Source: Tetrahymena thermophila SB210
Taxonomy: Eukaryota; Ciliophora; Oligohymenophorea; Hymenostomatida; Tetrahymenidae
Length of the DNA stretch: 64,000 nucleotides
Reading direction: 5' to 3'
Assembly: GCF_000189635.1 (NCBI RefSeq)
Contig: NW_002476412.1
Coordinates: 186,001-250,000 of the forward strand
Positions 1 to 49,111 of this stretch are shown one piece after another (within the stretch, counting starts at the first letter, position 1; the number at the start of each line of letters is the position of its first letter). Under the pieces are notes generated by a model. The model saw only the letters and a program-made list of their open reading frames with translations. It ran no database searches and had not been told where the DNA came from. A program made the translations under genes and the position numbers.

Positions 1-484
1 TAATTAAAATTTGTGAGTCATTAAAAATCTTCAAAGTAAAAATTAAAAATTACTTTTTCTGCAAACTATTTTACAAACCATTATTTATTTTTTTAATTTT
101 AGTTCAAATATTTAATTTTTAAGCAAATAAAATTTACTTTTAAAATAATTCCAAAAATAAAAAATTTTTTTTTTTTTAAATTAAGTTTTGAATTGCTTAA
201 ATTTTTGATTGAATTCAGTCAATAAAAACTGTTTAAGTACTTAAATAAATGAGTTTTATTTTTACATTTGAATAAAAAACCTTATTTTTTCAACAATTTA
301 ATTAATATTATTTGCAACAAATTTAACAATTTGTGTGTCTGAATTGTTACGCAATCACTTTATTATGATTAGATTATTAAACCCTTAAATAACTGAACAA
401 AATCTAAGCAATATTTAATTTTTGCTTTTTATATAAGCCAAAAAGTAAATAGATAAATAAATATCTGTATTAATTAGAGTAGAA
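1..484. other. AT-rich upstream region
   Basis: No coding frame, RNA gene or repeat is recognisable. It is extremely A+T-rich with long T and A runs and lies upstream of the large gene starting at 485, so it probably contains that gene's promoter. No specific motif can be defended. Confidence 0.5.
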
Positions 485-12678: not shown

Positions 12679-15600
12679 ATGCGAATATTAATCCCCTTAT
12701 TGATATTTATTTAATAACTAAGCTAATTTGTATGGTCACAGAATTCTAATATAAATTTAGTATATTCGCCATTTTACTTAAATAAAATAGATTTTACAGA
12801 AGATTAAGGAATACCTCTCACTATTAGAGTTGCGTAAGATAAAGATTTAGTTTTTATATCATTAGGATTTAAGGGCATATAAGTAATGGATGAAACAGGT
12901 AGCAAATTAATCTTTAAATCAGCTTTAGGTAGAGATTACATAAGCGCCTTTGATGTAACTAGTGATGGCAATTATATTTTAGTAGGATTGAATTCAGAAA
13001 TCAAGGTTTACCAATTCATTAATCCTCTAAATTAATTAAATTTACCATAATAGTTTATTTAAGTAGGATAATGTAATTTTCCAACTCAAGTGGAAGATTT
13101 AATTTATGTAAAAGATATAAAAATAGCTGTAGCCGTTGGAATGCTAGGAAGTGTTGTTGTCTATGATGTTGAAGTAATGTCAGAAGTATATATTCTATCA
13201 ACTTATACTGTTGATACTCTTCAGATTACTGGCGTATCTGTTTCTGACGATGGTCACTGGATTTATTTGGCTTGTGATATTGTAGGAGTAGTTGTTTTAA
13301 AGATAAATATAATTCCTCCTTAGATTCCTAATGATAAAAGATAAGCAACTTTACTTAATGCTGCAACAGGTGTCGGATATAGGAAAAGTTGGTATGCTAC
13401 TGCAACACATGATTAATAAATTTTATTTGAAGTAGAGATGTGGTTTGGCCTATTTTATGCACCATTTAAAAACGTACTGGCAAGTAGTGAAAGCTAATAC
13501 CCTCTTAAATTAAATTTCACTGGTTTTTGGCCATTTTCACAAATTAGTCCTACTACATACATCCTCTTGATTTCATCTAATGATAATTTGCTTTTTGTAG
13601 CAGCTAGATCGCAAGGTATTTTCATATTTGACATCAGCTAGAGAGATAATTTTAGATTTTATCATTAGATTTAAGTTGATGCCCTCGCTTAATCAGGCGT
13701 TTTCTCTAGAACTGAGCAATATTTATATTATTCAAATTCGATCAGCGTGTATACATTTGTACAAAATAAACCTAATCTTAATAATCAATATCCTAATATT
13801 TTCAACACCAATTAAGCCATTGAATTAAGTATGGATGGAATTTACAAATGGAGGTGCTACGTAGATCCTACGGATAACTATTTGATCGGAGCGTTTGATT
13901 ATTCTGGATTTTACATAATGCCTTTCTATTAAGACCCATATAAGTTAAATTTAGACACTTCAATTAGATTGAGTATTGAGTCTGATTCAGCCTACTTAGA
14001 CCCCGATGGAAAATATCTTTACATTCCTTCTTTATATTCTGAAAATTTATTAACTGTATTACAGATTAAGCCAGACAGTACTGATCCAACCAATTCATAA
14101 AATATATCTATTATGAACCCAAAAATAGTTTATTCTTATCATACAGACACAGTTTAAATGTCTGAATCAATTAAATTTAGCAAGGATAGGCAGTACGCAA
14201 CTATAACTCACTCAACTGGAATCTTAATATTCAACACAACAAACCCTCTTGACTTTAAACTGATCAAATATTGGGAAAATCCATCATTCATAAGTGGAGA
14301 AAATCAAGGAGCTGTAATAACTCACGATAACAAGTGGATTGTTAGCACTGTTAGAGCTTATGGAATTTATGCTTTAAGTTTTACTGATAAAAATAACATT
14401 ACTTTAGTGGACTATATAGAAACTTTAGGTGGAGAGGGGATAGAATTATCAATTCTAACTGATCAATATGCTTATCTAATGGATGGAATGCTTGGTTTTG
14501 CTATAATAGACTTATACTCTTTACCTAAAATAGATATAATCTCCAGAGTTAGCTTACCTGGCTGGACAAGTATGATATAGCCTTTGTTTGATGAGTAGTA
14601 TATGCTTGTCGGTTAAATGGAAAAGGGTATGCTTTCTCTACTTACTATAAAAGACAAAATAAATCCAAGGAAAATTAGTGCTTACTAAAGAGATAAGCAG
14701 TATTGTGTATCTATTTGCATTCCAAATGATTAGTCTTTTGTTTTTATTGCTGGACCTCAAGGAATAATTAGTCTTCCTCTAACAAGCAAAGTAATGATTC
14801 ATACAGAGGTAAGCTAATTAATATCAAATGGTAGTACAAATACTACACAAAAATTTGATTAAAAACTATCCCTAGTAAACACTACTGGATTAAGTTAGGA
14901 TGACTTTGTCTTTTCTGTAGGATAGATTATCTAGTTAAATTTTGTTATACTCTATCCTCAAGATAATATGAAGATCACTTCTTTACATATTTATTAGAAT
15001 GATTAAGTCTTAGATTTACCATACTTTATGTCCTATAATCCCTCAACATAAACTTTAGTAATGGCTATCAGTCAGTAACTACTTTAGAATATTGCTGGTG
15101 GAGTCGCTTTAAACACTATTCTTGTTGAAACTGTGATTCCACTATCTACAAATAACTTCATATATGATGCTGATGATGCTGATGATTTAGCAGTTACTAA
15201 TTCTGATTAAGCATAATTTATTATCAATTATTTGTAACACTAAGGAATAATTAATGACAAATATACTTTAAATTCTGGGTTTAATCCTAATAACTACTAA
15301 ATATTTGATGACAATTTCCTTAAAGGTTAAATTCTTACTAACGTTACTTCAAAAGACTACCAAAAAGCCTCTCAACAATTTATAAAAAAAGTTATCATTA
15401 CTTTAATATAATCTCAGTTTGTGAATTCTGTTATTTATTATGTAAGACCATCTCTATTTTTCTACTACTAAAGTTCCTCTCCTTCCATTTAAACATTATC
15501 AGATTAAGTTGTTATTGAAATTCAATCAAATGTAAATGATGGGATTTTTGTTTAGCAAATTTACCAAGGAGTGATTTCGTCAACTTCTTCTACTTTTAAT

Positions 15601-17967
15601 TATCTAAGGCTTAGTGGGTAGCTTAATTTAGTCAATAATATTTTATAAAATAAAATAATATTTGCTAATAAAACAGTAATACATATGGATGATTAAATAA
15701 ATAATTCTACTTAAATGTTAAATATAACTATTTCTGATTCTATTAATTTTCCAATTGCTTACATCCTTCCTCTTAATAGATGTAATTTTATTACCCTAAA
15801 ATAGTAAATATAAGAAAATCCTAATAGTACTTTACAGTAACAAATCAATAGACTCTTTTCGAACTCAGAAGTTGCTATTGAGGAGGATCTATCAATCATA
15901 TTTGCTGATAACACATTTTAAACTTCAGATGCTTAAACAATTACATATACAACTATGTACACGAAAGGAGATGTTGATAATGAGGAAGGGTATAAAAAAT
16001 TGACTTAGGACTTCTGGCTATAATAAGAAGGCAGCACAAAATTGTCATTCCATGGTACTGTACCTACTGATTCGTATCTAGAAGTTTTTTCATTTAAAGT
16101 GAATGCTACTGATGGTTACACTTATAAAATTAGTAAATTTTAAATTAAGATCTACGCAATACCTTTTTCTTATATTTTTAATCTTCTACTTAAAATTCTT
16201 GGTCCATTCTTTGCAATAATTGGTATCTACCAAAAAAGATGCATTATTCTAAACATGATATTTAAGAATAGTGTGCACTTCGATGAAGAAATTGTTGAAT
16301 GTAATTAAAAATATGTTAAAAAAATCATTATGCTTGGTGATAGCCATTAAGACTCAAAAATTATTGTGAACCTCTTATTTGCAAAAATTGAGTAAGAGTA
16401 ATCGAAAAAAAAAAATGTATAAAAATAAGAAGAAATAAATCATACTAACCCTTCGATGATAGATGAGGGTCATCCTTATTGTAATGATTAATAATTAGAT
16501 GAAAATAATATTATTAAAATGGTTTAGCAAACAAAGTTAATGACAACTAATAAACCTCCAAAGGTAGTTAATATCAAAAAGACAAAAAATCAACTTAGTG
16601 CTTTTAAATCTTAATAAAAAACTCACCCCGCTGAAAAGCTTTATTTAAAGTAAGATGGAAGTATGAGCATGTCTAAAATAATTAAAGATATAATATCTTT
16701 TAATTTAATGAAAGTTAGACAAATTAACTAGAATAATATTGCTGATTTGAAAAATGTAAATTCCAGGTTATATAGAGGCATAAGATCTCATGCAGCAAGA
16801 TATTTACTTTAGTTAGATAAAAAATCATAGCTTGTTTATGAGTTCATTAAAAGTTATTGCTATGAATATTTGTAAAAATCCTTAAATGATTGGTACAAGG
16901 CTTTGGTCAATTTAGACTATAAATAAGAGACAGATGATAAAGGCATTTTAACAATCTTCCCTCAACTCTCTATAAACGTATAAAATTTAATAAAAATTAT
17001 ATTTTAAATAAATATTTTATCAATCGAAGAAATGTCTTAAATTAATAATTTCACTTAACTTATTAAACATTCAACAAATAAACAACTTGATATTAACTTC
17101 TTCCTCATCAGAGAAGTATTATATGCTGATGCTCTCGGTTATTGCTCACACATACCTTCCGTTCTATAGCCCTCTGTAGGAGAATCAATTCATTTACATT
17201 CATATGAAATTTTATAAATTATTGCTTTTAAAAAAGAGTAATACAAAAATAGTTGTGTGAGATTCTTAATGAGCATGCTTAATTTAGATTATAATAAATA
17301 TGGAGTTTCTAAAAATTTAAGGCTTCCTAAATGGTTATAATTAGATTAAAAACATGGTATTTTAATGATTTATGGTACACCTTCTACTGAAGATATAGAT
17401 GAAGTACTAATTAGAGTATATGATCTTAGTGGATATGTAATAAAATAATTCTCTTTAAAAGTTTAAGCTTCTGAAAAATAAAAATTTGTAAAAGATGAAT
17501 CTCTATTTAGCATACCTGATGAAAGTGACTCCTTATTTTAATTAGATTAAGTTTTAGATGATAATTAGTAATTGAGTTAGAATTGTACATTTAATATCTA
17601 GCAAATTTCTCCAATATATAACAAAAGAGAAAGATAAAAAACTTATAAGTCAATTTATAAAAATTCTACAGATTTTAGTCCCTAAAAATAAGCCAATGAA
17701 ACATTTAACTCAGATACATTTTTTTTCTAATAACAACATATTTTAAAGTCAAAAACAAAGGATCCTGTTAGTATTTAACTTTATGAATTCTAAAAAAGAG
17801 ATAATAGTAAAAATTCATTTATAAAACATAATGAAACAATATCTTTCTCTCATTAAAACTCATTATTTCCATTTAAAACAAATAATGATTTAATTTCTTT
17901 AAACTATCAAGAAACTATTAATGAAACTTAAATAACAAATTAAGACACATTATATAAAGAAAAGTGA
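12679..17967 (+). CDS. Giant LVIVD/beta-propeller type-I membrane protein (copy 2)
   Basis: A single exon of 1762 codons in the ciliate code, ATG at 12679 and TGA at 17965-17967. It is the paralogue of the gene at 485-5752, with nearly the same length and order of parts: short hydrophobic signal peptide (MRILIPLLIFI), propeller repeats (GHWIYLACDIVGVVVL, GFAIIDL, SLPGWTSM), a cadherin-like stretch with FKVNATDGYTYK near residue 1140, a membrane span after it (FNLLLKILGPFFAIIGIYQ), and a Gln/Asn-rich cytoplasmic tail with a second CADG-like patch (LRLPKW). The two copies are the same strand, 6.9 kb apart, and too diverged at the DNA level to be a recent duplication. Function unknown; surface receptor or adhesin is a guess from the layout. 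Confidence 0.9.
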
Positions 17968-26685: not shown

Positions 26686-27678
26686 TCAATTCTATGGCTT
26701 AACAAGCTAGGCTAAATAATCGTGAGTGCCTTGCTTGTTATTGCTGTCGCTTTATTCGTTATTGCTGGTGGTTCCATTATTGTTGACTGAACCGCTTGCA
26801 TTGACTTTCATGTCTTCTTCATCATCTTCCTCGCCCCACTTTGCGATATCAGCTCTTCTTTCTTCAGAGTTTTTGTAGCCAGGAGAAGCTGACTTAGAAT
26901 GCTTGGAGTGAGATCTAGACTTCTTCTTCTTTTTATCTTTATCTTTCTTGTGCTTTTTATGGGAGCTTCTGGAACGAGAATGCTTCTTTTTGGAGTCTTT
27001 TTCATGTTTTTCAGATCTTTCCTTATCCTTTCTTTTCTTTTTAGATCTCTCATCATCATCTGATCTAGAGCGAGAGCGAGACCTGTTCTTGTATTCAGGA
27101 TGCTCTTCGTACATTTATCTGAAAAGGGATCTTCTGAATGGTCTACCGATAGGCTTAGAGTGAATGTAATTACAGTATCCACTTCTTTTGCACTGACCTT
27201 CAATATATTGTTTGCATTTTGCATTAGAGAAATCAGTAACGGGAGAGAATTCAGGTTGGAGCTGTTGCTTGTCGTAATAACGAGTCTTTAAGGACATCAA
27301 GCACTTAAGAGCTTCGCTTTCCCTAACATATTTAACGTAAACGTTTCCTTTCATGTGATCACCGATGTTATCACAAATGATCAAGTCATCAATTTCTCCG
27401 TAACTTGCTAACTCCAAAAAGACTTCCTCATAAAATTCTTCGTAGTGATTCAAAGCCTTCTAAGCTTCTTCTTCGCTGACTCTATTACCCTAAGCCAAAG
27501 CCAACTCAGTGGGGGAGTTCTAGTACATGTGCTTAATCAAGATAGTCTAACTCTCAGAGGGTCTGTTGTGGATTCTGAGACATTTATTTTCATATCTGCA
27601 AGCACCAATTTTAAAGTAGAAGGGACAATTGACCTTGTCTTCTTCTGTACCATACATACGACTTAATTTCTCAGCCAT
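26686..27678 (-). CDS. U2AF1: U2 snRNP auxiliary factor small subunit (U2AF35)
   Basis: An intronless 330-aa gene in the ciliate code. U2AF35 binds the AG at the 3' splice site and pairs with U2AF65 in the nucleus. Visible parts in order: first CCCH zinc finger C18-x8-C27-x5-C33-x3-H37, with the family signature FYFKIGAC; the U2AF-homology (RRM-like) domain, residues ~45-155, including [20 protein letters not shown] and GNVYVKYV; second CCCH finger around [15 protein letters not shown]; then a basic RS/KR tail ([20 protein letters not shown]) of roughly 90 residues and an Asn/Gln-rich end. Reading stops at TAA or TAG near 26752 would cut off the last 22 residues; the true stop is TGA at 26686-26688. 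The start ATG gives the expected N-terminus ([20 protein letters not shown]). Confidence 0.95.
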
Positions 27679-29796
27679 TTCTAAAACTTAAACTTACTTA
27701 TTTACTTACTTTTACTATTAACCTTACTACTTCTACTACTAACTAACTTTTACTACCTTACTTGCTTTCTTTGCTTTCCTTTACTAATAAGCTAGCTAAC
27801 TAAAATTTATACCTTAACTTAGTTTATTTAGATATTGTCTATAGACTTCCTTTTTCTACCGCTTTTCTAAGATTTAAGTCTTTTCTCTTTACTTTTCTTT
27901 GATTATTAAATAATTATATTAATATTTTTCTCTTTTCTCTTTTTTCTTTCCCCTCTCAAAGAAACAAACAAATAAAAAATCAAACATCCAAATAAGCAAA
28001 CAAAATAACAAACTATATTTATTTATTTCTTTCTTTCTTTGATTGCTTGTATATTCTTTTTTTGCATATTATTAATAAAATCATATGCAAATTATTTTAA
28101 ATTTTGTAAAACTTTCATTCATTGACAAATAAAAAATATAAAAAGCAATCTGCTATTTAATCTGAATCTTACTTATATCCAAAATCCTTCAAACAAAAAT
28201 TAAATTTCAATTACCTAAATTTATTAAATTTTTGAATCACTTTTATTTGATATAAAATTTTTTGAATACCATTCTCTTAATCAAAATGCTTTAAATTTAT
28301 TTAATTTATAATATTTGTTTCTATCAGCATAAAACAAGCAACAATAAATCTTATCATAATATTAAAAATTTATAAAATTTGCAATTTTTATGTTTTTGTA
28401 TTTTAAGAATGAAATAAAATAATTTAATTAAATATTTTATATCAATATAGGCAAACAAAATTATTAAATTTTATAATATCTAGGTTGCAAATTATTTATG
28501 TTTAAAAAATAAATTAACTTTTAAGAATTAAAAAATTTTATTCACATTTAATTAAAGCATAAATATTGTTTTATTCTTTTTTGATATTATTGAAATAAAA
28601 ATTAATTATAAAATAAATTAAAACAAAAAAAATAATAAATAAATAAAATTCTCATTTCATTTTTGTTAAGTTTTTAGCACAAAATATTTTTGCAAATTAA
28701 TTTTTTGAAATAGTTAAATTTTATTTCTTAAATTAATTTCAAATACTTTCCGAAACTTTTAATGCTTTTATTATGTCTAAATCAATATTATTTAACATTT
28801 TAATGTAGGATTATATTAGAATTTTGTTTTATATGGAGATAAATATTTATCAATATATTTTGAAATATTTGATATTAAAGTTTTTTAATATTTGTTCTCA
28901 AAAATAAAATAGGCTTTCAAATCGATTTATAAGATGTGAAATAAAGTTTAATGGGTTTAATTATAGTTCACAAAAATCTGATGTTAATTTTTATTTATTT
29001 ATTTATTCTTTAGACATTAAAATCTATTGTCCTAATTTTACAAAAAATTCTTTAGGCTCTAAAAATACTCCATAAATTTAAAAATGTTGAAATTTGATAA
29101 TCTTACATATTTAATTCTAACTAATATAAATAAAATTATGCTAGTTAACATTTATCTTTATAAACTTAACAAGTAAAATAATCAATCCATTTATTGGTTA
29201 TAAAATTTTTTAAATGCATATCAGAACAATAAATTTTCAAAGTTTTTAAGTTTTTTTATTTTTCAAAGAGTTTTTTTTGTGTGATTTAACTAGAGAAGCT
29301 GCTGATTCGATTTTATTAAATGGACTTTGTAAATTTCTTTATTTTTATTAAAAAATTAAACTAGTCTTTAAAAAAATATGTTTAATTTTAAATACGAATG
29401 AAATAGCCGCATGTAGAAAAGAAGACAGAGAGAAGATAGCAAACATATTCATAAATGATACAAATCACTAGGAGTATGGGGCTGAACTGAAATCAAATTT
29501 TACTGAAGAATAAATAAATGGAAGAACTTGACAGATTGTTATCAAAAATTAAATATACCAATAAATAAAAAGTGCGAAAAATAAAGGAAAACGATAAGCA
29601 AATAAGCAATAAAGCAAGTAGTAAGAAAGAGTTAATTATAACAAATTTGATAATAGTATTACTCATTAAATTTGATTTGCGTAATCATAATTTCAATAAT
29701 AATTATTTAATTGCAATATAATTAATATCCATTAAAAAGGAAAGAAAGTCTAACAATTAATTTAGAAGGAGATATACAAAATAACTATAGAAACAA
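27679..29796. other. Intergenic region between U2AF and EF-hand genes
   Basis: 2.1 kb shared upstream region of two divergent genes. 27679-28030 is pyrimidine-rich on the plus strand (purine-rich on the U2AF sense strand) and is probably U2AF 5' UTR and promoter. 28030-29390 is plain AT-rich sequence. 29390-29640 is less AT-rich and purine-rich just upstream of the EF-hand gene; the only open frame there is about 30 codons. Confidence 0.4.
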
Positions 29797-32441: not shown

Positions 32442-33765
32442 ATGACTTTATAGTAAGCTTAACCTCTCTTAGCAGAATTTGAAACTTTAATAGCTTCTAA
32501 CAGCAATGCTCCTAGAGTAGGCTAATTAATATCTTAGTTAAAGGTATTTCTTTTAAAAGAAAAAATTAAGTTTAGTATCTATTTTAAGTGAATTTAATCA
32601 ATCAATAAATCATTTACTTCTAAATATCAAACATTTACTTTTATAAAAACAAATAGCGTATTATATTCCTCCTACCCAGTAATGATCCTCTCACTAAAAC
32701 AAAAAATGAATAAGAGTTGATTGCATCCAGTAATGAACAGCTTTAATTTTTAATCTCTAAATTATTTCATAAAACAGATAAAACGATAAATTGGGAGTAT
32801 TAAATATTTGTTTTAAAAAAGGACGTTTCCACGAATTGTGCATTTTACATAGCATTTAATCCAAAAACATTCAAAGCTTTGAGTCAGCAATTAATTACTT
32901 AAGAGCTTATTACGAAAATTATCCTTAATTGCCAGCTTCTCAAGATAGAAATTAAATTATTGCATTGAATTTGTTATATCTTCTTTCTTTCAATAAGTAA
33001 TTCAATATAAATAAATTTTAAAATAGAATTAATAAATTTTATTATTAAATAGAAACACTGAATACCATTCAGCTTTGGAGTTAGTTCCAGTTGAAGACTT
33101 GCACAATAATTAATTTATTCAATTCGTTACTGAATTAGAAAAGTAGTTGGCTATTGGTAACTACTCTGAAGCTCTCCTTTCTAAAAACAAGTCTCCTCTT
33201 GCTCACTTCGATATATTCTTGGATAGAATCTTCGAAACTATTAGGTAACTTAGGATATTCTTTTGATTTTTAACTGATTAAGAGATTTATTCTTTATATT
33301 TATAAAAAATGAATTTAAATGATTCATTAAATGTGTTAGAGAGCGTTTGTTAATAGAGTTTATTAAGGGAATTATAACAAATAAATTAGTAGAAACAAAT
33401 AAAAGCTAAGAAATTAATATTAATTTTAAAAAAACAGATTTGAAACTGCTAGAAGTGCTGAAAAAGCCTATGAAAGTTTATCAATAAATGATGCAATTAA
33501 ATTATTTAACCTTCAAAATGCCGATTAACTTAAAAGCTTTTCAGCTGAACAATCAAAATAAGGAGAAGTAAATTAACTATTTGAATGAGCAATTAATTAA
33601 TCAATAATTATTATTTTTTTTAAGGAACAAGGATTTTCTTGGGTTTTCGAAAATAATAGATTAGTCTTCCGTCATAAAGATTCTGATAAAAAAGCATTAT
33701 TCAACTCTGAATTTCTTATTTCAACAGCACTAAGTTATGCTCATGAAATTGAAAAGATTGTTTGA
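32442..33765 (+). CDS. RPN12: 26S proteasome regulatory subunit Rpn12 (PSMD8)
   Basis: Six exons, 32442-32543, 32657-32729, 32822-32996, 33053-33244, 33438-33567 and 33625-33765; all phases agree and give 270 aa, close to yeast and human Rpn12. Rpn12 is a PCI-domain subunit that is added last to the proteasome lid and triggers joining of lid and base. Recognisable segments follow the family in order: FLLPSNDPLTK, SFESAINYLRAYYENYPQLP, IALNLLYLLSFNKNTEYHSA, ELEKQLAIGNYSEALLSK, HFDIFLDRIFETIRFETARS (start of the PCI helix-winged-helix part), AEKAYESLSINDAIKLF and the C-terminal FSWVFENNRLVF strand with a final helical tail. The exon 3 acceptor (32820-32821) was chosen because it gives a gap-free match to the family; other AG sites add foreign residues. 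Confidence 0.93.
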
Positions 33766-34298: not shown

Positions 34299-37200
34299 TC
34301 AGAGCTTGCTTTGTTTATTCATTTGATCGGCTTCAAATTTAGCCTTGCGTAAGCTTAGTTCTTCTTATTCATCAAATGCAATATCAAGAACTTCGAATAT
34401 ATTCTTTACAAACTTAAAACTATTTATTTTTTTTATTAAATAATTATTAATATATTCATTTTTTACTAAATTTATCAATTAATTTATTTACTCTATGTTT
34501 TTCTTAATCTCAGGAGTGATATCTTCTGTATCTTTGCGATTCTTGTAAGGTAGAATGATTCTAATTATTTAATTAAAATAAATTAATTTTAATAGCTTTC
34601 ATTAAAAATTTTAATTACGTTTTGATACCATTGGCATAAGCGGCTAATACCTTTTCCTTAATTCCTCCCACTGGAAGAACTAAACCCTTCAAAGTTATTT
34701 CACCAGTCATAGCAATATCACTTCTAATCTTTCTCATTGAAAGTAAAGAAAGCTATTATAATAATAAATTATTTACAATTACAAAAAAAAAAAAGATTTA
34801 AATATCTTACTAATGCAGTTGTGATTGTAATACCAGCTGAAGGACCATCCTTTGGTGTAGCTGCTGCAGGGAAATGCACATGAATATCAATATTGTCAAA
34901 TAATTTTTCAGCCTTAAAAATATCAGGATCTTTCATCATGAATTGAATGTTCTACCAATTTGATTTAATCCATCCTATAGCAGTTTGTACAGATTCCTTC
35001 ATAACATCGCCTAACTAACCAGTTAAGTTAATTTTACCTAAATTATTAAAACAAAACTTAGAATTTTTCAAGAATTTAGAAATTTAAATTTACCGCTTCC
35101 TTAACTCATGCTTGCTTCTATGATCAATGTTTTTCCACCAACAGCTGTATAAGCCATTCCCACTGCTATACCTGGAGAATTAATACGGTCTTTTATTTCC
35201 TCTTCATCATATATTTCAATGCCTAAGACATCTCTCACATAATCAGGAGTTATTTTTACTTTTTAGAATTCCTATTTAGATCAAAATTTAATTCGAATAA
35301 AAATTTAGTCAAGAAATATTTCAAATTAAAATAAAATATGAAATAATTCAAATTGAAATTTTAAAATCCAATAAAAAAGGATTTATTCTCAGAAACATTT
35401 AATAAAATAATTAATTGAATTATAATTTTAATAAAATTTACAGGCAAATTTGGCTTGTCTTTGTGAGATTATTTGTGGGTGGAATATTTAACAGCAACAC
35501 TTCTGCAAACAGAACCTATGTTTCTTTCTAATTGACGTACTCCAGCTTCTCTTGTATAGGCCTTTATAATCAAATCAACTGACTCTTTATCAAGGTCAAT
35601 GATACTTTAGTTGATTCCGTTTTCTTCAATTTATTTTGGTATTAAGTACTTGTGAGCAATGTCTTTCTTTTCATCCAAAGTGTATCCTGGAATTTAAATA
35701 ACTTCCATTCTGTCAAGAAGAGGTCCTTAAATTGTATCCAATTAATTTGCAGTAGCAATAAACATCACATTAGAAAGATCAAAAGGCAAAGCAAGATAGT
35801 GATCAGTAAATGTAGAATTTTAGTTAGGGTCAAGAACTTCCAATAAGGCACTAGATGGATCTCCTCTGTAATCTCTATTTATTTTATCGATTTCATCAAG
35901 TAAAATTACTGGATTTTTAGATTAGCACTTTCTTAAAGCTTGGATAATAACACCAGGGAGAGCACCAACGTAAGTTCTTCTGTGTCCTCTAACTTCTGCT
36001 TCATCTCTAACACCACCTAAAGATATTCTTTCAAATTTTCTTCCTAAGCTATCTGCTATAGATTTTCCTATATATAAATGAACTTTTTTAGTAAAAAATA
36101 ATAACTTCATTTTATTCTTATTTACCTAAAGATGTTTTTCCAACACCAGGAGGTCCACAAAGACAAATAATTGTTCCTTTAGAGTTTCCTTTCAAAGAGC
36201 GAACAGCAAGGAATTCTAAAATTCTTTTCTTAACTTTTTCTAATCCTGAATGGTCTCTATGTAATATTTCTTCTGCTAACTTTAAGTCATAAGTATCTTA
36301 AGTTGTTTCATTCCAAGGAAGCTCCAACACAGTATCAATATAAGTCCTAATCACATTAGTTTCTGCGTTTTGACTTCTAATACTTTTCAATCTTTTTATA
36401 TTATAAAAACAATTTAGATTTTAAAAATTAAAAAAAAATAATTATTAATTTATAACAAAAAATGATATTTAATAATTTTTAGCATGTTCTATTTAATTTG
36501 CTTTCAGGTATATCTTAAACATAATATTTAAAAATTTTTCGATATTTTAACACTTATTTTCTTCCTTTAACAAAGAAAGAAAGAAATAAACAAATAAAAA
36601 TATTTTTTTCCTTACTTCATATTTTTTTTTGAAAAATTTGTATTTTTTAGTTTTTGAATAAAAATTTTGTAATTAATTTGAATGCTAGATAGCAATAGAT
36701 ACTACTACTTTTTAATTTTTAAATAAAACTTAATTAATTTATTTATTTATTTACCTTTTAAATTCTCTCATTACAGCATTAAACACGTTTTCTGGTAGTT
36801 GCTTCTACTTAATTTGCATTTCTAGTTGAGACATTTCGTCTTCAGGAGAAACATTGAATCCTCCAATTTCATATTATGGAGGTTGTTGACGAAGAATTAA
36901 TTGACGGGATTGTGATTCATTTGACATTTCTTTTTTGACTTTCTTTTCTAACTCATTAGCAAGTTTGAGCTCATCGTTTTTTGATTATAAAATTTTGCAT
37001 ATTTCTTTGATACGCTCTTTGATTTCATTAACTTGTAAAATGACTTGCTTTACCTCTGGCTGAACGTCCAAATAATTAGCTACTGAAAAAACTAACTTAT
37101 TGATTGATTATTCATTCTCTATAAGTTGCTTTTTAGGCGGGACAGCTTCAGGTTTGCAAACTATTTCTACATAGGTTTTAGCTAAATTACGGAAGTCAGA

Positions 37201-37816
37201 GATGGTATTGTCAGCTTTAACAGCTTTTTCTATTTCAGGAGGGATTTCATCTGAAATCAATTCTACGTTAGCGATGTAATAAGGAGAGGTTTTATCAAAA
37301 TCAATTACTTTAAAACGACCAAATGCGAATGCTCCGTAATACCTAACTTCTCTATGATTTTTTTAATAACCAGCTGTAAATGTATAAAAAGTTCTATCTT
37401 CACTGGTTATCTTCAATATAGTTCCATATCTAGCAAAATTTTCGATTGTTTCGATATTTTTTTCTTTGCACAAAGTAGGATCTAAATTTGGTAAAACACC
37501 TATCATGCTGTTGAACTTCTTAGCTATAATTTAAATTATTTTAAACATTTTATTCAGACTAAGTAATCATAAAACTAAATGATAAAGAATAAACTGATAA
37601 ATTTGTTTCAATGAGTAATTTAAAAAAGTCTTATGTTTATTTGGTTTAGAATGATGCTAATTAAGCATTAGTCTATAAAAGTAAATTAATTTTATAGAAT
37701 ATAACAATGAATTTACCATCATATTAGTAAGTTTCAGGAATCCTTATGTTGATGGTTTAGTATGGAAATACTACTCTGTTGTTAACAGGTAGAATGTAAA
37801 GTTGCATTTTCTTCAT
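34299..37816 (-). CDS. LONP2: Lon AAA+ serine protease with C-terminal SKL (peroxisomal Lon)
   Basis: Nine exons: 37717-37816, 36755-37523, 36126-36391, 35442-36067, 35094-35271, 34811-35037, 34619-34753, 34492-34560 and 34299-34419; about 829 aa. ATP-driven protein quality-control protease. Parts in order: Lon substrate-binding domain from the first residues ([13 protein letters not shown]), coiled region ~220-300, AAA+ module with Walker [10 protein letters not shown] (369-377), Walker B ILLDEID (D436, E437), sensor IATANQL, then the protease domain with catalytic Ser in [10 protein letters not shown] (S713) and Lys in [10 protein letters not shown] (K754). No mitochondrial presequence is present and the last residues are QSKL, a type-1 peroxisomal signal, so this is the peroxisomal form. 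Every splice phase agrees except exon 6 to exon 7, where one extra base in an A4 run at 34740-34743 breaks the frame (see findings). The first ATG has an in-frame TGA two codons upstream. Confidence 0.93.
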
Positions 37817-39155: not shown

Positions 39156-40307
39156 AATAATTAAAATTATTGTTTTAAATAAAATAAAAAATGACAAAAG
39201 CAATTAAACACAATTAAAATTGAATGACAATATTCATTTAAGCAGATAAATAAGTAAAATATATTTATAATAAATTAAAATAATTTAAATTTTGGATTTC
39301 TCTTTTCAATCAATTATACAGTATTTATATTTTTAAACATGTAAAGTTTATGTATTTATACAAATTTTTTTCAACTTAATATGAATCTTAAAAGATAAAT
39401 ACAAATATAAACACAAAAATCACTTACTCTTTATTAAAATATTATTAAAATTACTTTTGTAATTAATCTAGAGCAAATTTTAACTAATAACTTCAAATTC
39501 GTTTTTTATTTCTTGATAAAATATATTTTTTCTATATAATTGTTTTTTTCCTGTAAAATATATTATTTAAAAAAGAATATTTTATAAACTCTTATCAGAA
39601 AATGCTTCAAGTCAAAAATTTTTTCAAATTAATTATAAAGGATTAAAATTTTCTAAGAACAAGTAGAATTTATGGAACAATTAATTAAAAATATGGTGAA
39701 TTTTAGACATTCTTTTTCACTTAATTAATATAAATTTATAAAAAATGTTAAAGCTCAATCATTTATCCATACAAAAATTAAAAAAATAATTATTATCTTC
39801 TCATTTGATATCTTATAAAAAATTTAAGAAAGAAAAATTTTGAAATTCAATAAAATACATCAAGAAAATTAATTTAAGAAATATTTATTTTATGGTGTAT
39901 TTTATTTCATTTTCTAAAATAAAGAGACAATAAATCATTTATTATTTTAAACAAAAATAATGATTCCATCATTTCATCTTAAAAATAAATAAATAAAATA
40001 AGTTTAATGTGAAATTAAACAAAAATTTTCAGATTAAATTTTAGAGGATATTTTTTTAAAATATTTTGTTTGAAAAAATTGTTTTTAGATTTTTATGATA
40101 TTTCAATTTTTTTATAATTTTTTGGTCAAAATATTTTGTTTTTAAAGAAGAATTGACTACGTTTTGAATATAAATTGATATATATTGATAAAATGATTAC
40201 ATAGAAAATGATAATGAAAATTTGTTACTGAGTCTATTCTAAATTGTTAATGATTTATTAATTATTTTTAATATTCTAATCTTAACTAAATTTCTCTCTA
40301 TTATATT
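39156..40307. other. AT-rich intergenic region
   Basis: 1.15 kb between convergent genes; no coding frame, RNA or repeat recognised. Likely holds the 3' UTRs of the genes on both sides. Confidence 0.4.
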
Positions 40308-43300
40308 TCAAGAAACTAGCTTTTTTAGCCCTATTTTTGATTTCTCTTCAGGAGCTATTTTTGCAAAGTTGTCTACTTAGTTTGTATAGTACACATTTTG
40401 TGTTAGTATTGGCACATTTGCACCTACTCTCCTTTCGTAGAGCCCATAGTTGAAGCCAATTATTTTATAAATTGGATTTCTGTTTATTAATCTCTCATTT
40501 ACAAGCTGGATAATTTCAGGAATAAGGCAAATAAATCCAATTGTTAGGAATATGAAGAATGAGGATGTGCTTGAGAAGAAAGCACTGACCATCTTATCCA
40601 AATTATTATATGAAATTCTAGAAATTCCCTTTGTTTGTATTATGAACATGACTATAATAAATAGGATGTAATCAATAACCATCACCCAACTATTTTTTAA
40701 TTTCAAATAAAACACTTAGGTAAAAAAAAAAAGTTAAAAAGTGTTACTAATGATATGAAATATTTGTAGAATGAACTATTTATTTGTATTTCATCAAATT
40801 AAAAATGGTAAACAAAGCACAAATTTATGTGAAACCATGGTTCATAACAACACCTGTTCCATCTACAGCTTCTTGCAAAGTCTATTCATTATTTATAAAA
40901 TTTTAATCAAATTATCTTAGATTTTATTCAAATAAAATTTGTAAATGAGGGAAAGAAAAAATTCAACAAAAACTTTATCAAAAATTAAAACATAAATTTA
41001 TAAAAGAAATTAATTTGCTTTTATGTTTTCACTAATAATTGTAAAGCCATTCAAATTATAAATTCAATAAATTTTAGTACGATAGACTTGTATTTTTAGT
41101 TAATATTAATTTCACTTCAAAAATATGTTAATATTTGAATGTATTTAGCTATCTTTAGCCTATGAATATTCTTAATATGAAAAATAATAAAAAAAATATG
41201 TTTGATTACGTAGGAGGTAATAAAGAAAATAAATATTCCTTAGCACAAAGAAAGAAAAGCTCTATAGAAATATTTAGGTATTGAGGTAAGTTTTTGAAGA
41301 CTTCCTTAGAGATAAACTTAAGGATATTCAATTTGCTAATACATTTAGATATCGAAATCTAAGAGGTAAAAGAAAGCTGCACCCCAATTAGCGAATAGGA
41401 ACTCATAGAAGAAATAGATCAAATTACAGAAAAACAATTAACCAGAGTACATCACATGGAAAGCATAAATTAATTCTAAAGTTGTAAATATTATACTCTT
41501 TTCTATCATATAAGTACATAATTGCTAGCTTTTGTGATAATGCTGTCTACCATATGATAATATAAGATAATTGAGTTGCTTGAAACTTGTGAATTAACCA
41601 TCAGCATATGGTAATATAGATTACTAATTTGAATTATCCTCTCCTTCTTTACTGTAAACTAGAGAAACATCTGAGGTCTACATTAAAGGAATATCTTTTT
41701 CACTTGAGCCAACTGCCAAGAAGTTTAGAGAAGGAGATATACATCCTTTCACCTATGAAATCAAAGTTTATTTTAGTAAAGGACTCATACCCCATATGAC
41801 ACAATTTTATGCATGTAACATCATAGTGAAAAACATCACTTTGAAAATTTGCATGTTTTGGTCTTGAGAGCTAAATAGTGTTTAAAGAACTTTGGCATCC
41901 GATTCCATATTATATTTTATCTTATAGCTAGATATCTAACTAACAATATTAGATCCGAACGTGCTTAGTTTCTATTCATAAAATCATAGTAAAATATATT
42001 AATAAATAAATAAATTAATTAATTATTTTTGATTAATTTAAATTTAAAATATTTAAAGAATAAAATAGTAAAAATAACTGATTAATTAACAATCAATTAT
42101 TATTCATAATAAAGATATAGCTTCTCAATATAAAAATATATTAAGATTTATCTGTGATAATAATATAAAATAGCTACTCAAATATGAAGAGAAATCATAC
42201 TTGAGAAAATTCGCTATTTTATAAATATAAAAAAATTTTCTTTTTTTTTAAAAGTAAAATTTTAATTTTTTTTTCTTTAAAAAATAACTTTGTTTGTTTG
42301 TTTAAAAAAATATTTGAAGATTTAATTTTACATATTATTTGAAGTAGAAGTCAATTTCTTTAATGAGAAGGGTTGGATCTTATTAGGAGATTCTGAATGT
42401 TGGAGCAAGTGAGTTTTCTTTGAAGATATTTTACTGTTAGTTATAATTTTATTCAGTAAGATACCAAGGCTTAATACTTGATTGAGTTAATCTGTTGAAA
42501 GGATCTCTGTAAAATGTTTTAAAGGCAAATAAACCTAAATACTCTAAGTTATTTTCGATATTAGCTAAAAGTTGATCTGTTTAAACTGTATTCTGTTTGA
42601 GATCGCTTAATACTGCAAAGAATCTATCGTCAACATGTTTGGTAGCAAGAATTTAGCAAGTATATCCTCTAGCTCTAAATTACTTAATAGAAAGCTTAAT
42701 ACTCTCTGATAATTCATTATCCATAATCATTTTATCCATAACTACTTCTGGAGAACCTCTCATTAATAGCTAATTATCACTGTTTGTTCTAGATATATAA
42801 CTTGTTTAGTAAGGTCTATCAGCACTAGGAGCTTACTAAAAGTTCAAAGTGAAATTTTCTTCCACGTTCATTGTACTGATTATAAATTAGTTTTGCTCTT
42901 CTCCGTTTGTATAAAAGATTTCCAGTTTTTCACAGTACTCCTTTAAAGCAATATCTTCTTTTGTTTATTAATATTTTCCATTCGACATCAAGCCAAATTT
43001 GAAGAGTTTAACTACCTACTGAATTTATCTTTCTCCCATTCCATCAAATAAATGCTGTTTTTTATAAAGATTCAATTAATTAACAATTTTTATTTTCCAA
43101 ATAATTGAATTAATCATTTTATTCTGTAATAAATCTATTAAAATTTACAATTAATTTAAAATATTTGAATTAAACAAAATTTAAATTTTTGATTTTGCAT
43201 TTCATTCAAAAAAACATTTATTTAATTTAAAGATTATTTAATTTTTAAAAAAGCTAATTACTGAGTTATTGTTTTAATCAAAACCAATATCGTAAGCAGT

Positions 43301-46300
43301 AAATCCTTAGAATTCAGTATATCTCTCATTTACATTTTCTAAATCGGAAACAATTACATTAAGTTTTCCTAAGAAACTTATTTTTTATCCATCAAAAATT
43401 ATTTCTTTGTATTTACTAATTTCTTTCTTTTAGTTCTTTGCTTCTAATTATTTATTTATTAAGATTTAGTATTAATAAATTATTTTGATTTGATTTATTT
43501 ACCAGGCTCCTGTTAAGTGGCAGTGCTTTTATTGAGATCAACTCTTTTCTTCTCATCCTCAAAATTAAGCTTCTTTTTGCTTTCTTAAAATTCTTTTTCA
43601 CTTTTTAATATTCTCTACTTAGGTTTAGTTTCGTAATAAGATTTACTAGCATCTAAGGGTTTCATTTCTTAATCCAATTAAGTAAACGAAATGGCATTCA
43701 TCTGCTTTTAACTCTCTATAATGTCATCCCAATCGTCTGGCATTCTGTTAATTAAGTATGTTTACAACAAATCTACAGCTCCTAAAACAGGATATAAGAA
43801 AGTTGGAAGAGTACTTGTAAGGATTACAAGATAATTCATGAATACCTTAAATACTGGATCTACTTGCTGATGTAATTTATTTCAAATAATATTTATTATT
43901 ATAAATTATAGGGATAGATACGATAAATATTAAAATTCGGCTGAATAATTTATTTCTCACTAAAAATTAACCGAATGCTAATTGCCCAATGCTGAATAGA
44001 CAAAATATTCGATTAAACAAAATATTCGGTCTAGCCTTATTAAATTATATAAATTATAATAATTGATAATACTTTAAGATAATGGTAGTTGTTTAAGGCA
44101 TCAGAAGCGAAGGAGCTACCAAGGATGGCAAAAATAATAGCAAAAACTATAATAAAAATAAGTGAAAAGAAGACGTGTAAGTTGATGAAACTGTTCAAAA
44201 TATGTTAAAATGTTTCTCTTTAGAAATTAACTCCATTGTATTTAGATTTTTATGAAGTGAACAAAACAATTCCAATGATAAAATCAGAATTAAGCAATCT
44301 CATATTTTTAATGCCAATGTTCTCTTCTCTTTATACATTAAGTAAAAATTAATCATTAATATGTTTTTTTTAACAATTTACGTGATTTAAAATTCGTTTC
44401 CAGAATTTACTGCAGATGACTTAAATGTTCCTTCCCATTTACCCTCTTAGATAGAAAGAGTATCACTATTAGACTTAATAGTACCATCTATACTAAAGGC
44501 ATTGCTAATTAGTTAAGACTTATCCAGCTCTCTTATTTGCTAAGGTACATATTTTCTTTCAAAACCAGACTAATTTATTTTAAATAAATTTAGATAAAAT
44601 TACTTCATAAAAAATACACACCTGAGAGCCATGAGAATCCAAATTAATAAATATGTCTTCACCTGAAGATGAAACCAAAATCAAATCAGCTGGAAGAAAT
44701 TCACCTTATTTTATTTTAACAATGTCACCCTGTCTCAGTTCACCTCTTTTACAGGATACAAAGCTTCCATTAGAGCTTTTTTAAACAGTCTAATTATCAA
44801 CAGCTTAGCAGAAATAAAAATTTCTTTTCTTTAAATTGTAGTCAATAACTAACTAGGAGAAAACTGAGAATAAATATAGAGCAATCATGCATGGGAAATT
44901 CTTTTTATTTAATATAATAACATTTTAATTAAATAAACCTAAAAATATTCGAACTAATTGATTAATAATCTGAACTGAAGCTTGCTTTTTAATTTAATTT
45001 TGTAAAAGAATTTGATAAATTTAGCAAAAATCATCAATCAATTAAAAAATCCTAATTAATAATAAGGATTTTAGGCGAGTTTTATTTATTTATTTATTGA
45101 TTTTATTTTCTATTTTATTTTTTTGTTTTTTGCTAAATTTTCAAAAATAATTTGGCTATTTGGATTTTTAAAATGATTTAAGAAGGTTATGGAAAATAGT
45201 TACTCTCGAATTCTACCAATAAATAACAGATGCGATGACACCTAAAAAGAAGAAATAAACATTTATTTTTTTGAAGGCAATTTGCAATAATAAGTAGAGA
45301 GTGAAGGTGAATCTATTTTTAGCAGGAGCAATACTATTTTATAATTAAGAATTCACTTTGTTATTTCCAAAAGATATGTCTAGAGGTTTTATTTTAGGAC
45401 GTAAAAGCTGAGGATTTGAAGAGAAAATTTTAGCTATTTTTGATTTTTACTCATAGGGTTTAGTTTGACTTTAATATTAAATGGCATTGCATAACTTAGT
45501 ACATATTCTTTTGCAAGCTGATTGCTTGAATTCAGATGGATTTTGTAATTAATTATTTCCATATGGAGCGCTCATTTAATTATTCTGATCTGCCTAAAAT
45601 TGCTCTTAATTATCTTCTGCTTGGTTCAATATAATTGGATCATTATTCATGCGTGACTGAGATCTAATAATATTATTGTCTTAGTTTTCCCTTATGAACT
45701 TCTGGTCATCTTGAACTAGAGACTCATTTAACTGAGAGGAATTACCATAAACAAGACTTTGATTAACGCCTTTATACATACTTTGATTAAAATCTTCATG
45801 AACTTCTTTCTCTGTAAAAAAATGAGTAAATTAAAAATTTAAATATTTTGGGTAAATTCACTATGAAAAATAAACAACAACAATACTAACTAAACACTCT
45901 CAATAAATAAAAAAGATATTTGACAGCTTTTAACTAAAAATAAATTGCTTTTAAAAAGTAATGGTTGATTAATAGTTTGTTTATTAGTCATAAGAAATTG
46001 TAAGTTTGCATGATTTGATTATTGAAAAATAAAAAAAATTAGAGAGTGATTTATGAGTTTTAATTTAGATTACAGTTTTTGTTTTAAAAAGAGTCTAATT
46101 ATAATTATAAAATTTATTATTTATAACAAAGTATTACATTCTTCTTCATAGATAATTTGATCTCTCCCGATGTTATGTTTCTCCGCAGTTTTAATTATTC
46201 TTTGCTTTTCAGGACTCAAATCTATTCCAATTATTCATTTAATTTGCATTTTCGCATAATAATTAACAAATTTACTCTGATCGCTCACATGATTTCCTTA

Positions 46301-47656
46301 TTCTTCAAGGTGATTTATTGAATCAACCAATAAAACTACTCTGCTATTTTCTTCATCTTATGTTGAGTTTTCTGCTTTCTTCTTTTTCTTTTTTTTCTTA
46401 GCTTTAACAACAAAATAAAATATTCATTAATTAATTAAATAACATTATCAAAAAGCTTTTATTTATCTAACAAATTTAAAATTTATTTTCTTAACAATAG
46501 TTAGATTGATAGATATCTCATCATTTTTAATTTTGCTTATGCTTACTATAATTTGAGTTGAAATTTCTACTTTTTCGATAATTTTGATTAACAAATCAAC
46601 CAATTTAATTAACAAATATAAATTAATCAACGTTAACAGCATTTCGCTAAAAAATTAAATTTTGTGTATTTATTTATTTTTTATCCACAAAAAAACCTTA
46701 CTCAAATTATCTTTTAGCAAAAAAACTTAAAATTAGACTTTTTGTTTGTATTTTTGGTATTAATTTAAGTAAAATACTTTTAACGGGAGGCACAAGCTCG
46801 TTTTATTCTGTATCATTAATGGTATTGTTAGGATGAGTAGGAAATAAGTTATTATCTGTAAAAAGCATATTATTTTATTCTTGTGAGGTTATATTTTACT
46901 GGTTTTACATTTAGTGGTCTTCTTATTACAATTCATTGATCAATTAATCGATATCTGCTTTCTGTTCGTTTCCATTTAAGGTCTATCCTTGATCTGTACC
47001 ATACATTTACTATGGTTATTATTAGTTGCTTTCTTGATAATTACTCTCAGGATTTACAATTTCACTAGCAAAATTTCCATCTTAAATTTCAGAGTTTTCA
47101 ACTTGTTTCTTTTTTTTCTTCTTTTTTTTCTTTTTCACAGTAGATTAGTCAAACCCTTCCTAGTTATTGATCTAATCTTATTGCTACTGCTAATCGTAGT
47201 AGATTTACTAATAATTACCATCATCTAACTAGACAATTTGATGCTGATCTTGTTGCAAAATTTAATCAATTGCATCATTATTTTGGTTTAAATCAATAAT
47301 TTCTTCTTGCTAAGGCTTTTTAGAAGTAGTTGCTCTAAACGAGTCTAAAGCACTTTCTACAACTTGCTTATTTTCTGCATATGCCTCATCTTTTAAATAA
47401 AAAATTAAATTTACATTCTAATGAAAAACCTTTTTCTTGAATATCAAAAACTATTTTTTTTCATTCAAAAGAATTCTTTGGTTTATATTTTAAAAACTTT
47501 TAGTATTTTCTTGTATTTTTTACCATATGCCTATTCCTACTGAATTTCAATTTATTGGTCTTAAACTTATTCCTCTTCTTCAACTCTTTTTTTCTTCTTC
47601 TTTTTCTTTTTCTTTCTAGCTCCATCAGCTTATGGTGCACCCACTTTATATTTCAT
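40308..47656 (-). CDS. P4-type ATPase (phospholipid flippase) homologue with degenerate catalytic motifs
   Basis: Fourteen exons, all GT-AG and in phase: 47524-47656, 46778-47389, 46276-46401, 46138-46221, 45204-45811, 44622-44900, 44411-44569, 44073-44321, 43503-43866, 43262-43443, 42332-43054, 41210-41971, 40748-40881 and 40308-40689; 4797 nt, 1598 aa. Residues 1-430 are low-complexity, Gln/Asn-rich, with three poly-Lys tracts. Then the P4 order follows: TM1-2, actuator domain (GEFLPADLILVSSSGED), TM3-4 with LPTFLYPVL at the PISL site, P and N domains, TM5-6 (MYSGQLFFCNLIYFFYEFL) and TM7-10 ending at residue ~1560. P4 proteins normally move phospholipids across membranes using ATP. Here the actuator DGET is DSHG (609-612), DKTGTLT is DLENVNE (905-911), KGA is RGSP, TGDKxE is TEQNYN (from 1132), and GDGxND is GSSEKD (1261-1266). 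With an intact frame, a pseudoenzyme is likelier than a pseudogene. Low-complexity start residues depend on exon 1 at 47656. Confidence 0.9.
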
Positions 47657-49111
47657 AAAAATAAGTTAAAATTTTATTACTTCTTGGCTCTTTTATTTAG
47701 AAGTTTCAAAAAATATAATCAAACTTAGAACATTATTTTTATGGCTATTAAAATATATAAAGCTAAAAATTAATAATAAAAATTACACTGAATTTCTTTT
47801 TGGTTATTCTGATCTTCATAGTTAAGATTGTAATATAAAAAATATAAAATAATGGTTGAAGTTTGCCTTAAGAATTTTGATTTATTATACTAAATCTTAA
47901 ACTATTTCTTCTTTATTATAGAGTTCACTTTCCATGTTCTCTAGATTAAATTTTTGTTAGCTTTTAATTTATTCTTTTAGTTAATTACTTAATTAATAAT
48001 TTAGATGGATTTAAAATCAAAAACAAAAAAAAACAAAATCTAATTAGTCTTTTATTAAATGTTTATAAAAATAATAGAAATTTTATAGTTTCTTATTAAA
48101 TTTTTTTTGATATCAATTTACATTTATTCATACTACCAAATACCTTAAGGTTATTTACCACCTAACAATAGTCTTTGACTTATCTTTTTTATTAATTGTA
48201 GATTTTAGTTTACTCTATTAAATTCCATAAAATCTGATTAGATATCATCCTACAAAGATTTAATATAACAATTAAAACTAATTATTTTCAATCAATAAAA
48301 ATATCTACTAATTATAGCTCAATGCTATTTAAATTATTATTTTGTTCATATGATAAAAAATATTAATTTTATATTTTTTTACTTACTCTTAATTAGTAAT
48401 TAAAAATCATAAGGAAAGAAAAATCGCACGAATTAGATTATCAAAATTTTTAAAAATAAAAATCTTCTCAAGTAAAATATTGTCCTCAATATTTGGTTGA
48501 ATTAATGTAAATTTAATTTTATGATTTATCCAAACAATCACCTTTATGAACAAAAAAGAAAATGAAATATCAAATATAATTCGGGTTTAAACTTGTTAAA
48601 ATTTTATAAAAATAACTTCAATTCAATAAAAAAAATTACATTTTACTATTATAGATATGTATTTGTTGATTCTATTTGCTATTTAAAGAGCCAATCTAGA
48701 TATAGAATATCACTAGAGTTTCAAATATTTGTCTTAAATATTTAATTTATTTATTAAACTAGTTTCTATCCTGAAATTATATTCAAAATAATGTAAGCTA
48801 AGTTGATGTCTAATAAATTAAAATATAAATAAATAAATATATTCAATTTCATTTGAAGCTTTAAATTATTATCTATTTTTTAAATAAATTGATAACAAAA
48901 TTTTCCTTTTTTTAGAAATAAAATTCGCTCTATCCATTTGAAAATAAACTTTTTATAAAAATTTAATTAATTAAAATTCCATAAATTACTAATCTATATT
49001 TTTGAAAAAAAATAAAAATAAATGATAAAATCAAATAAATTTTATTACTAATAATAGAAATTATTTACTTTTTTACCAATATTCTTTAAATTTCCTTGAT
49101 TTTTTAAAAAG
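47657..49111. other. AT-rich intergenic region
   Basis: Upstream of the flippase homologue (minus strand). No coding frame or RNA recognised; the promoter of that gene must be near its right-hand end. The part from about 49000 carries the intron-like lead-in to the LRR exon at 49112. Confidence 0.4.

Follow-up and report, generated by a model that had tools for sequence, protein, structure and literature searches.

We analysed a 64,000-nucleotide stretch of the ciliate Tetrahymena thermophila SB210 (NCBI RefSeq assembly GCF_000189635.1, contig NW_002476412.1, positions 186,001 to 250,000 of the forward strand; this whole stretch is the window) and found on its minus strand a gene for a predicted P4-ATPase (flippase) homologue whose catalytic signatures appear to be lost. 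With a probability of roughly 0.6 the product is a pseudo-P4-ATPase that stands alone and most likely serves as a non-catalytic scaffold or sensor in the membrane; the signature loss, the intact reading frame and a relatively better kept membrane half point to this reading. From P-type ATPase enzymology, these signatures are needed for the phosphoenzyme cycle. The KTGT context and the actuator Glu have disappeared, as have TGDK and, within GDGxND, the first Asp and the Asn; without them the predicted protein would have no phosphoenzyme cycle and therefore no ATP-driven lipid flipping, and the intact frame suggests that the cell still selects for it. An earlier reading of the same DNA (the original prediction) had proposed a pseudo-flippase with a conserved non-catalytic role, in which the lone phosphorylated Asp survives: the pseudo-P4-ATPase stands, on homology, lost signatures and the lack of any rescue by splicing, and so does the intact frame, which gives the suggested role partial support, whereas the case for the surviving Asp is weak.

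Reading frames were opened under genetic code table 6 (TAA and TAG read as Gln, TGA as stop) in a window whose G+C content is 22.5%. Genes were predicted with a purpose-written, simple exon/intron Viterbi gene finder using order-2 codon-position statistics and GT-AG scores on both strands, trained on six open reading frame fragments of the window, two of them from the pseudo-P4 gene itself. The output contained one minus-strand gene from 47656 to 40308 with 14 exons encoding 1600 amino acids, so that the 14-exon frame originally proposed at 40308-47656 was recovered separately as the same gene, its product being 1600 rather than 1598 amino acids long. Exon G+C content is 24-32% and intron G+C content 10-21%. 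When the coding model was retrained with the pseudo-P4 gene excluded and with low-GC regions chosen by the analyst as the non-coding set, 14 of 14 exons had positive scores in the predicted frame, ranging from 6.6 to 55.9 with a sum of 296, and this frame outscored both other sense frames in every exon; the best antisense frame was beaten in 13, the exception being exon 14 (17.0 vs 17.6). After splicing, the predicted frame has a single TGA, the stop, and the other two frames have 34 and 64. Exon 3 has a phase-compatible alternative acceptor at 46401 instead of 46371, which would add a third Lys tract. The features of the gene are as follows, with the basis of each in brackets.

47524-47656, minus strand: exon 1, start codon and first Lys-rich tract (Viterbi, G+C content, coding score)
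46778-47389, minus strand: exon 2, Gln/Asn-rich tail and second Lys tract (Viterbi, G+C content, coding score)
46276-46371, minus strand: exon 3; a start at 46401, with the upstream acceptor, would bring in the third Lys tract (Viterbi, G+C content, coding score)
46138-46221, minus strand: exon 4 (Viterbi, G+C content, coding score)
45204-45811, minus strand: exon 5, end of the tail and first hydrophobic helix (Viterbi, coding score, hydropathy)
44622-44900, minus strand: exon 6, second hydrophobic helix and first half of the actuator domain, PF00122-like but below cut-off (Viterbi, Pfam, hydropathy)
44622-44642, minus strand: LDSHGSQ near the LDGES place, catalytic Glu absent (HMMER alignment)
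44382-44569, minus strand: exon 7, actuator domain (Viterbi, coding score, HMMER)
44073-44328, minus strand: exon 8, end of the actuator domain and third hydrophobic helix (Viterbi, coding score, hydropathy)
43503-43866, minus strand: exon 9, transmembrane segment 4 (TM4) and an inserted charged linker of about 80 amino acids that continues into exon 10 (Viterbi, alignment)
43792-43809, minus strand: LPTFLY in TM4 at the IPISLL/IPVSMY place, Pro kept and P-I/V-S lost (alignment)
43262-43443, minus strand: exon 10, candidate phosphorylation segment (Viterbi, coding score)
43325-43372, minus strand: LGKLNVIVSDLENVNE, the place given in the original prediction for LGQVDYVFTDKTGTLT (by eye; alignment programs disagree)
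42332-43054, minus strand: exon 11, nucleotide-binding domain up to the TGDK site (Viterbi, alignment)
42749-42760, minus strand: RGSP at the KGAD place (HMMER, block scan)
42440-42457, minus strand: TEQNYN at the TGDKQE/TGDKME place (hhalign, block scan)
41210-41971, minus strand: exon 12, rest of the phosphorylation (P) domain and first part of the C-terminal membrane domain, PF16212 (Viterbi, Pfam)
41693-41710, minus strand: GSSEKD at the GDGAND place, first Gly and last Asp kept (HMMER, block scan)
40748-40881, minus strand: exon 13, membrane domain (Viterbi, coding score)
40308-40689, minus strand: exon 14, last membrane helices, tail and TGA stop (Viterbi, coding score, hydropathy)

By its matches, the predicted protein is a P4-ATPase homologue, with homology far beyond chance. 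The P4 C-terminal domain (Pfam PF16212) was found above its cut-off at residues 1298-1542 (7.2e-30), and the P4-ATPase family model (NCBIfam TIGR01652) matched at 3.7e-47 and 160.7 bits. Among solved structures, 34 distinct sequences matched at an E-value of up to 1, and 20 of these are P4-ATPases; the 14 non-P4 matches (one calcium pump and 13 sodium/potassium pumps) had E-values of at least 0.24. The best solved relative is ATP11C (1.1e-23), aligned over query residues 79-411 and 624-1135 of 1192. The P4 parts occur in order, namely TM1-2, actuator, TM3-4, nucleotide and phosphorylation regions, and C-terminal membrane domain, and the ATP11C alignment suggests a P4 arrangement of the membrane helices, although ten helices are not resolved by a simple hydropathy scan. 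When a profile of three canonical P4-ATPases was aligned to the predicted protein with hhalign, the nucleotide-binding (N) domain was aligned up to the TGDK site and the phosphorylation site was left unaligned. The TIGR01652, PF16212 and ATP11C matches thus bear out a P4 homologue with the full domain order, as had been claimed. Like ATP11C, ATP8B1, ATP8A1 and Drs2p, the predicted protein has co-linear domains, a PF16212 C-terminal domain and N-domain similarity; unlike them it is without five catalytic signatures and the TM4 P-I/V-S motif, and it carries the extra linker of about 80 amino acids after TM4 and a low-complexity tail of about 440.

This N-terminal tail (Q 17%, N 11%, K and E 9% each) precedes the P4 homology, which begins only near residues 450-490. 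Exons 1-4 could for that reason be a separate gene, with the P4 relative starting within exon 5, but Viterbi joins them to the rest and the next TGA in the frame of exon 4 lies at 45647, within the span of exon 5, and we consider such a split quite unlikely. Lys tracts of 8 to 10 residues occur in exons 1, 2 and possibly 3 (46276-47656, minus strand), each followed by a Glu/Asn-rich stretch. From its pattern of tracts, the predicted tail looks as if it had grown through internal duplication.

The catalytic signatures are replaced at their aligned places, with RGSP for KGAD at the nucleotide site, TEQNYN for TGDKQE and GSSEKD for GDGAND. In a block scan of the whole protein, the top match for each of the nucleotide, TGDK and GDGxND blocks is the co-linear site, clear of the runners-up, with scores of 21.0, 29.3 and 18.0 against 20.3, 23.0 and 21.0 for the best of 60 shuffles, respectively; as the GDGxND block falls below its top shuffle, that placement rests on context too, and HMMER aligns the site. 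HMMER, hhalign and the block scan therefore agree with the original assignment of these three sites. In the actuator domain, where DSHG had been proposed as the counterpart of the catalytic motif, the site reads LDSHGSQS: the catalytic Glu is indeed gone, but HMMER pairs GSQS, not DSHG, with DGES (Glu to Gln). The statement that every recognisable motif is lost applies to the five catalytic signatures and goes too far for the flanking P-domain residues, since MSPLLK, which matches VSPLQK/APLQK of canonical P4-ATPases, and the last Asp of GSSEKD survive.

None of the canonical motifs, DKTGT, DGE[TS], TGDK and GDGxND among them, is present in the six frames of 40200-47900, and none of 7,790 minus-strand GT-AG pairs (introns of 35-500 nucleotides) creates DKTGT, TGD[KRNQ] or GDGxND. 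One pair makes KGAD, but within the N-terminal tail, and another makes TGES close to the C-terminal membrane region, so that neither lies in its proper domain; a reversed-sequence control with 9,075 pairs gave KGA[DES] 7 times and the other motifs 0 times. Alternative splicing, named in the original prediction as a way in which the motifs might be restored, is ruled out as a rescue by the six-frame and junction scans, as no tested junction restores a signature at its proper place.

By eye, LGKLNVIVSDLENVNE resembles LGQVDYVFTDKTGTLT and would place the phosphorylated Asp at D907 (D905 in the original numbering), reading DLENV. Another candidate is EIIFD (residues 887-891), which scores 15.3 in the block scan compared with 17.3 for D907, and with the full DKTGTLT block the D907 site is outside the six best listed. 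MAFFT places the phosphorylation site in the linker or elsewhere; these placements were judged wrong, there being no hydrophobic strand ending in Asp at those positions. They show, all the same, that the by-eye site is not forced in the predicted protein, in which DKTGT is absent under either placement. The product could still be an active but very unusual ATPase that relies on RGS, the lysine of SPLLK and the Asp that survives. In its favour, MSPLLK, candidate Asp 907 and the final Asp of GSSEKD are retained. Against it stands the absence of KTGT, TGD and the actuator Glu, and of both the first Asp and the Asn of GDGxND, and an active enzyme is highly improbable.

The balance of conservation between the catalytic and membrane halves was compared using ATP8A1 segments as queries, which gave 15.2 bits for TM4 through the N and P domains and 36.6 bits for the C-terminal part, a ratio of 0.42. 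Nine canonical P4 proteins, among them the distant NEO1 (1.55) and ATPase IIA (1.26), give ratios of 1.21-1.56; this sample is one row per protein (9 of 20 P4 rows), with ATP8A1 itself and construct variants left out. Of the 116 N/P columns that are invariant in ATP8A1, Drs2p and ATP11C, 28 are kept (8 gaps); of the 94 such columns in the C-terminal region, 34 are (2 gaps). In the N/P region the identity to these three proteins is 22.9, 17.3 and 16.4%, respectively, and in the C-terminal region it is 20.2, 19.3 and 21.5%; the N/P column and identity counts leave out the linker and come from an alignment that misplaces the phosphorylation site. Among themselves the three are 43-58% identical in the N/P region and 36-48% in the C-terminal region. 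The catalytic part is thus the better kept one in canonical P4-ATPases, and the scores here say the reverse, although this can be taken as indicative only.

A gene so divergent, with no relative in the viral and prokaryotic collections, might be a decaying pseudogene too recent to have gathered frame breaks. At 16-23% identity to canonical P4-ATPases, however, it has no in-frame stop and shows coding bias in 14 of 14 exons, and we regard decay as improbable because neutral change of such size would leave many TGA codons. In a simulation of neutral change, with base changes only (no indels) and bases redrawn from the non-coding composition, 26, 1 and 0 of 300 runs remained free of TGA at 5, 10 and 20% change, respectively; since TGA codons are gained this quickly, the intact frame argues against long neutral decay.

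Several results weigh against the pseudo-P4-ATPase reading. The 160.7 bits for TIGR01652 are well under the curated cut-off of 431.25, the partial PF00122 (2.8e-6) and PF13246 (0.003) matches are both below their cut-offs, and the N-domain match by hhalign has a probability of 48-55% (E-values of 1.2e-4 to 1.8e-4). Exons 11 and 12, predicted alone, gave uninformative structures with mean predicted local distance difference test scores of 33.3 and 39.2. No relative was found in two collections of viral and prokaryotic DNA (viral_contigs, 8 stretches fitting a pattern and 0 relatives; genome_contigs, 49 stretches and 0 relatives), in a search whose query of one protein and six short peptide patterns makes only close relatives findable. 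Raw identity bears out the inverted conservation only in part, in two of three comparisons and not against ATP8A1, and the ratio of 0.42 is noisy because the scores are so low. Out of frame in exon 11 there is a KTGNLL, preceded by a stop codon and with three mismatches to DKTGTLT. Neither MAFFT nor hhalign makes the by-eye D907 placement, and the block up to the Asp ranks D907 second (17.3; top 20.0; shuffle mean 18.9); of the claimed survival of the phosphorylated Asp there is left a resemblance by eye, weak and without support from alignment programs or block score. Finally, the TM4 P-I/V-S motif is lost (LPTFLY, with the Pro kept), and since this motif is part of the lipid path, its loss weakens a lipid-binding role.

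The loss in TM4 also bears on the idea that the P4 membrane domain serves as a passive, scramblase-like pathway for lipids or ions without ATP. The membrane domain is the stronger match, which fits such a pathway, but with the TM4 motif lost and no positive sign of a conductive path this seems decidedly improbable. For a scaffold or sensor, the membrane half may keep a P4-type lipid groove, a surface for a CDC50-like partner, or both, and a lipid- or partner-dependent shape would be read out via the cytosolic domains and the Q/N/K-rich N-terminal tail, whose poly-Lys tracts could bind anionic membrane or other proteins. The sequence does not distinguish between a scaffold, a regulator and a lipid sensor.

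Elsewhere in the window, two long plus-strand genes at 365-5752 and 12761-17967 have predicted proteins that look paralogous by eye; each has a weak Ig-like He_PIG match below cut-off, and the former also has a weak beta-propeller match (PF23414), below cut-off. At 9687-10662 (plus strand) lie four predicted exons of exactly 90 nucleotides each (9687-9776, 10025-10114, 10231-10320 and 10573-10662), which encode similar 30-amino-acid units, resembling leucine-rich repeats by eye, and which Viterbi joined to the paralogue at 12761. A Lon protease gene occupies 34492-37807 (minus strand), where the open frame 35238-36191 matches Pfam Lon_lid and AAA and the last Viterbi exon (33273-33069) looks like a false extension. 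The remaining genes noted are those for a CSN8/PSMD8/EIF3K family protein (32442-33765, plus strand) and a CCCH zinc-finger protein (26689-27798, minus strand).

P4-like domains are also known from alveolate fusions with guanylyl cyclases, of which the original description in ciliates is reportedly that of Linder in 1999. Two P-type ATPase-cyclase fusions, PAC1 and PAC2, occur in T. thermophila (PMC3143110). The P4 domain of Plasmodium falciparum GC-beta has been described as degenerated (PMC6592433), in which it is like the protein predicted here, while in GC-alpha the catalytic Asp is conserved, and a CDC50 protein stabilises GC-beta (PMC7858053). According to a 2017 review, the ATPase-like domain of alveolate cyclases is without demonstrated functional activity (PMC5746546). 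The present gene might accordingly descend from such a fusion, the cyclase having been lost or split off and the P4-like half regulating a cyclase in trans. The occurrence of PAC1 and PAC2 in this very species and the degenerated domain of GC-beta speak for this origin (PMC3143110; PMC6592433), but the gene stops at a TGA at 40308, its product has no Pfam match to a cyclase at E-values of up to 1, and for the seven open frames tested on its flanks Pfam gave no match up to 0.01; unlike the alveolate fusions, then, there is no cyclase in the predicted protein or in those frames, and we hold this descent to be unlikely.

Human TMEM94 offers a further likeness to the proposed pseudo-P4-ATPase, drawn from literature descriptions rather than from sequence comparison: it has a P-type-like architecture but no TGES, and its structures show no phosphorylation-dephosphorylation, autoinhibition not being excluded by the authors (PMC12134183). 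TMEM94 is a proposed Mg2+ transporter of debated class, and a later ERMA paper that refers to TMEM94 argues for an ATPase (PMC13322241). Judged by titles and abstract openings, the open-licence literature searched, outside which most subscription papers lie, describes no pseudo-flippase or inactive P4-ATPase of this kind, and the open-licence matches listed for Tetrahymena with P4-ATPase, CDC50 or flippase describe, on the same basis, no stand-alone pseudo-P4 protein.

Pseudoenzymes are well studied among kinases. Since a degenerate P4 domain in an alveolate is already known, the novelty here would be a free-standing one without a cyclase. We tentatively propose that a ciliate lineage keeps a dedicated class of stand-alone pseudo-flippases, in which the whole ATPase cycle was removed and the membrane fold preserved, turning a pump into a lipid or partner sensor and making the protein a free-standing counterpart of the degenerate, cyclase-fused P4 domain of Plasmodium GC-beta. 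If true, this would allow a direct test of the role of the flippase membrane domain without ATP, and it is relevant to the question of why alveolates join guanylyl cyclases to P4-like domains, of which at least one is degenerate.

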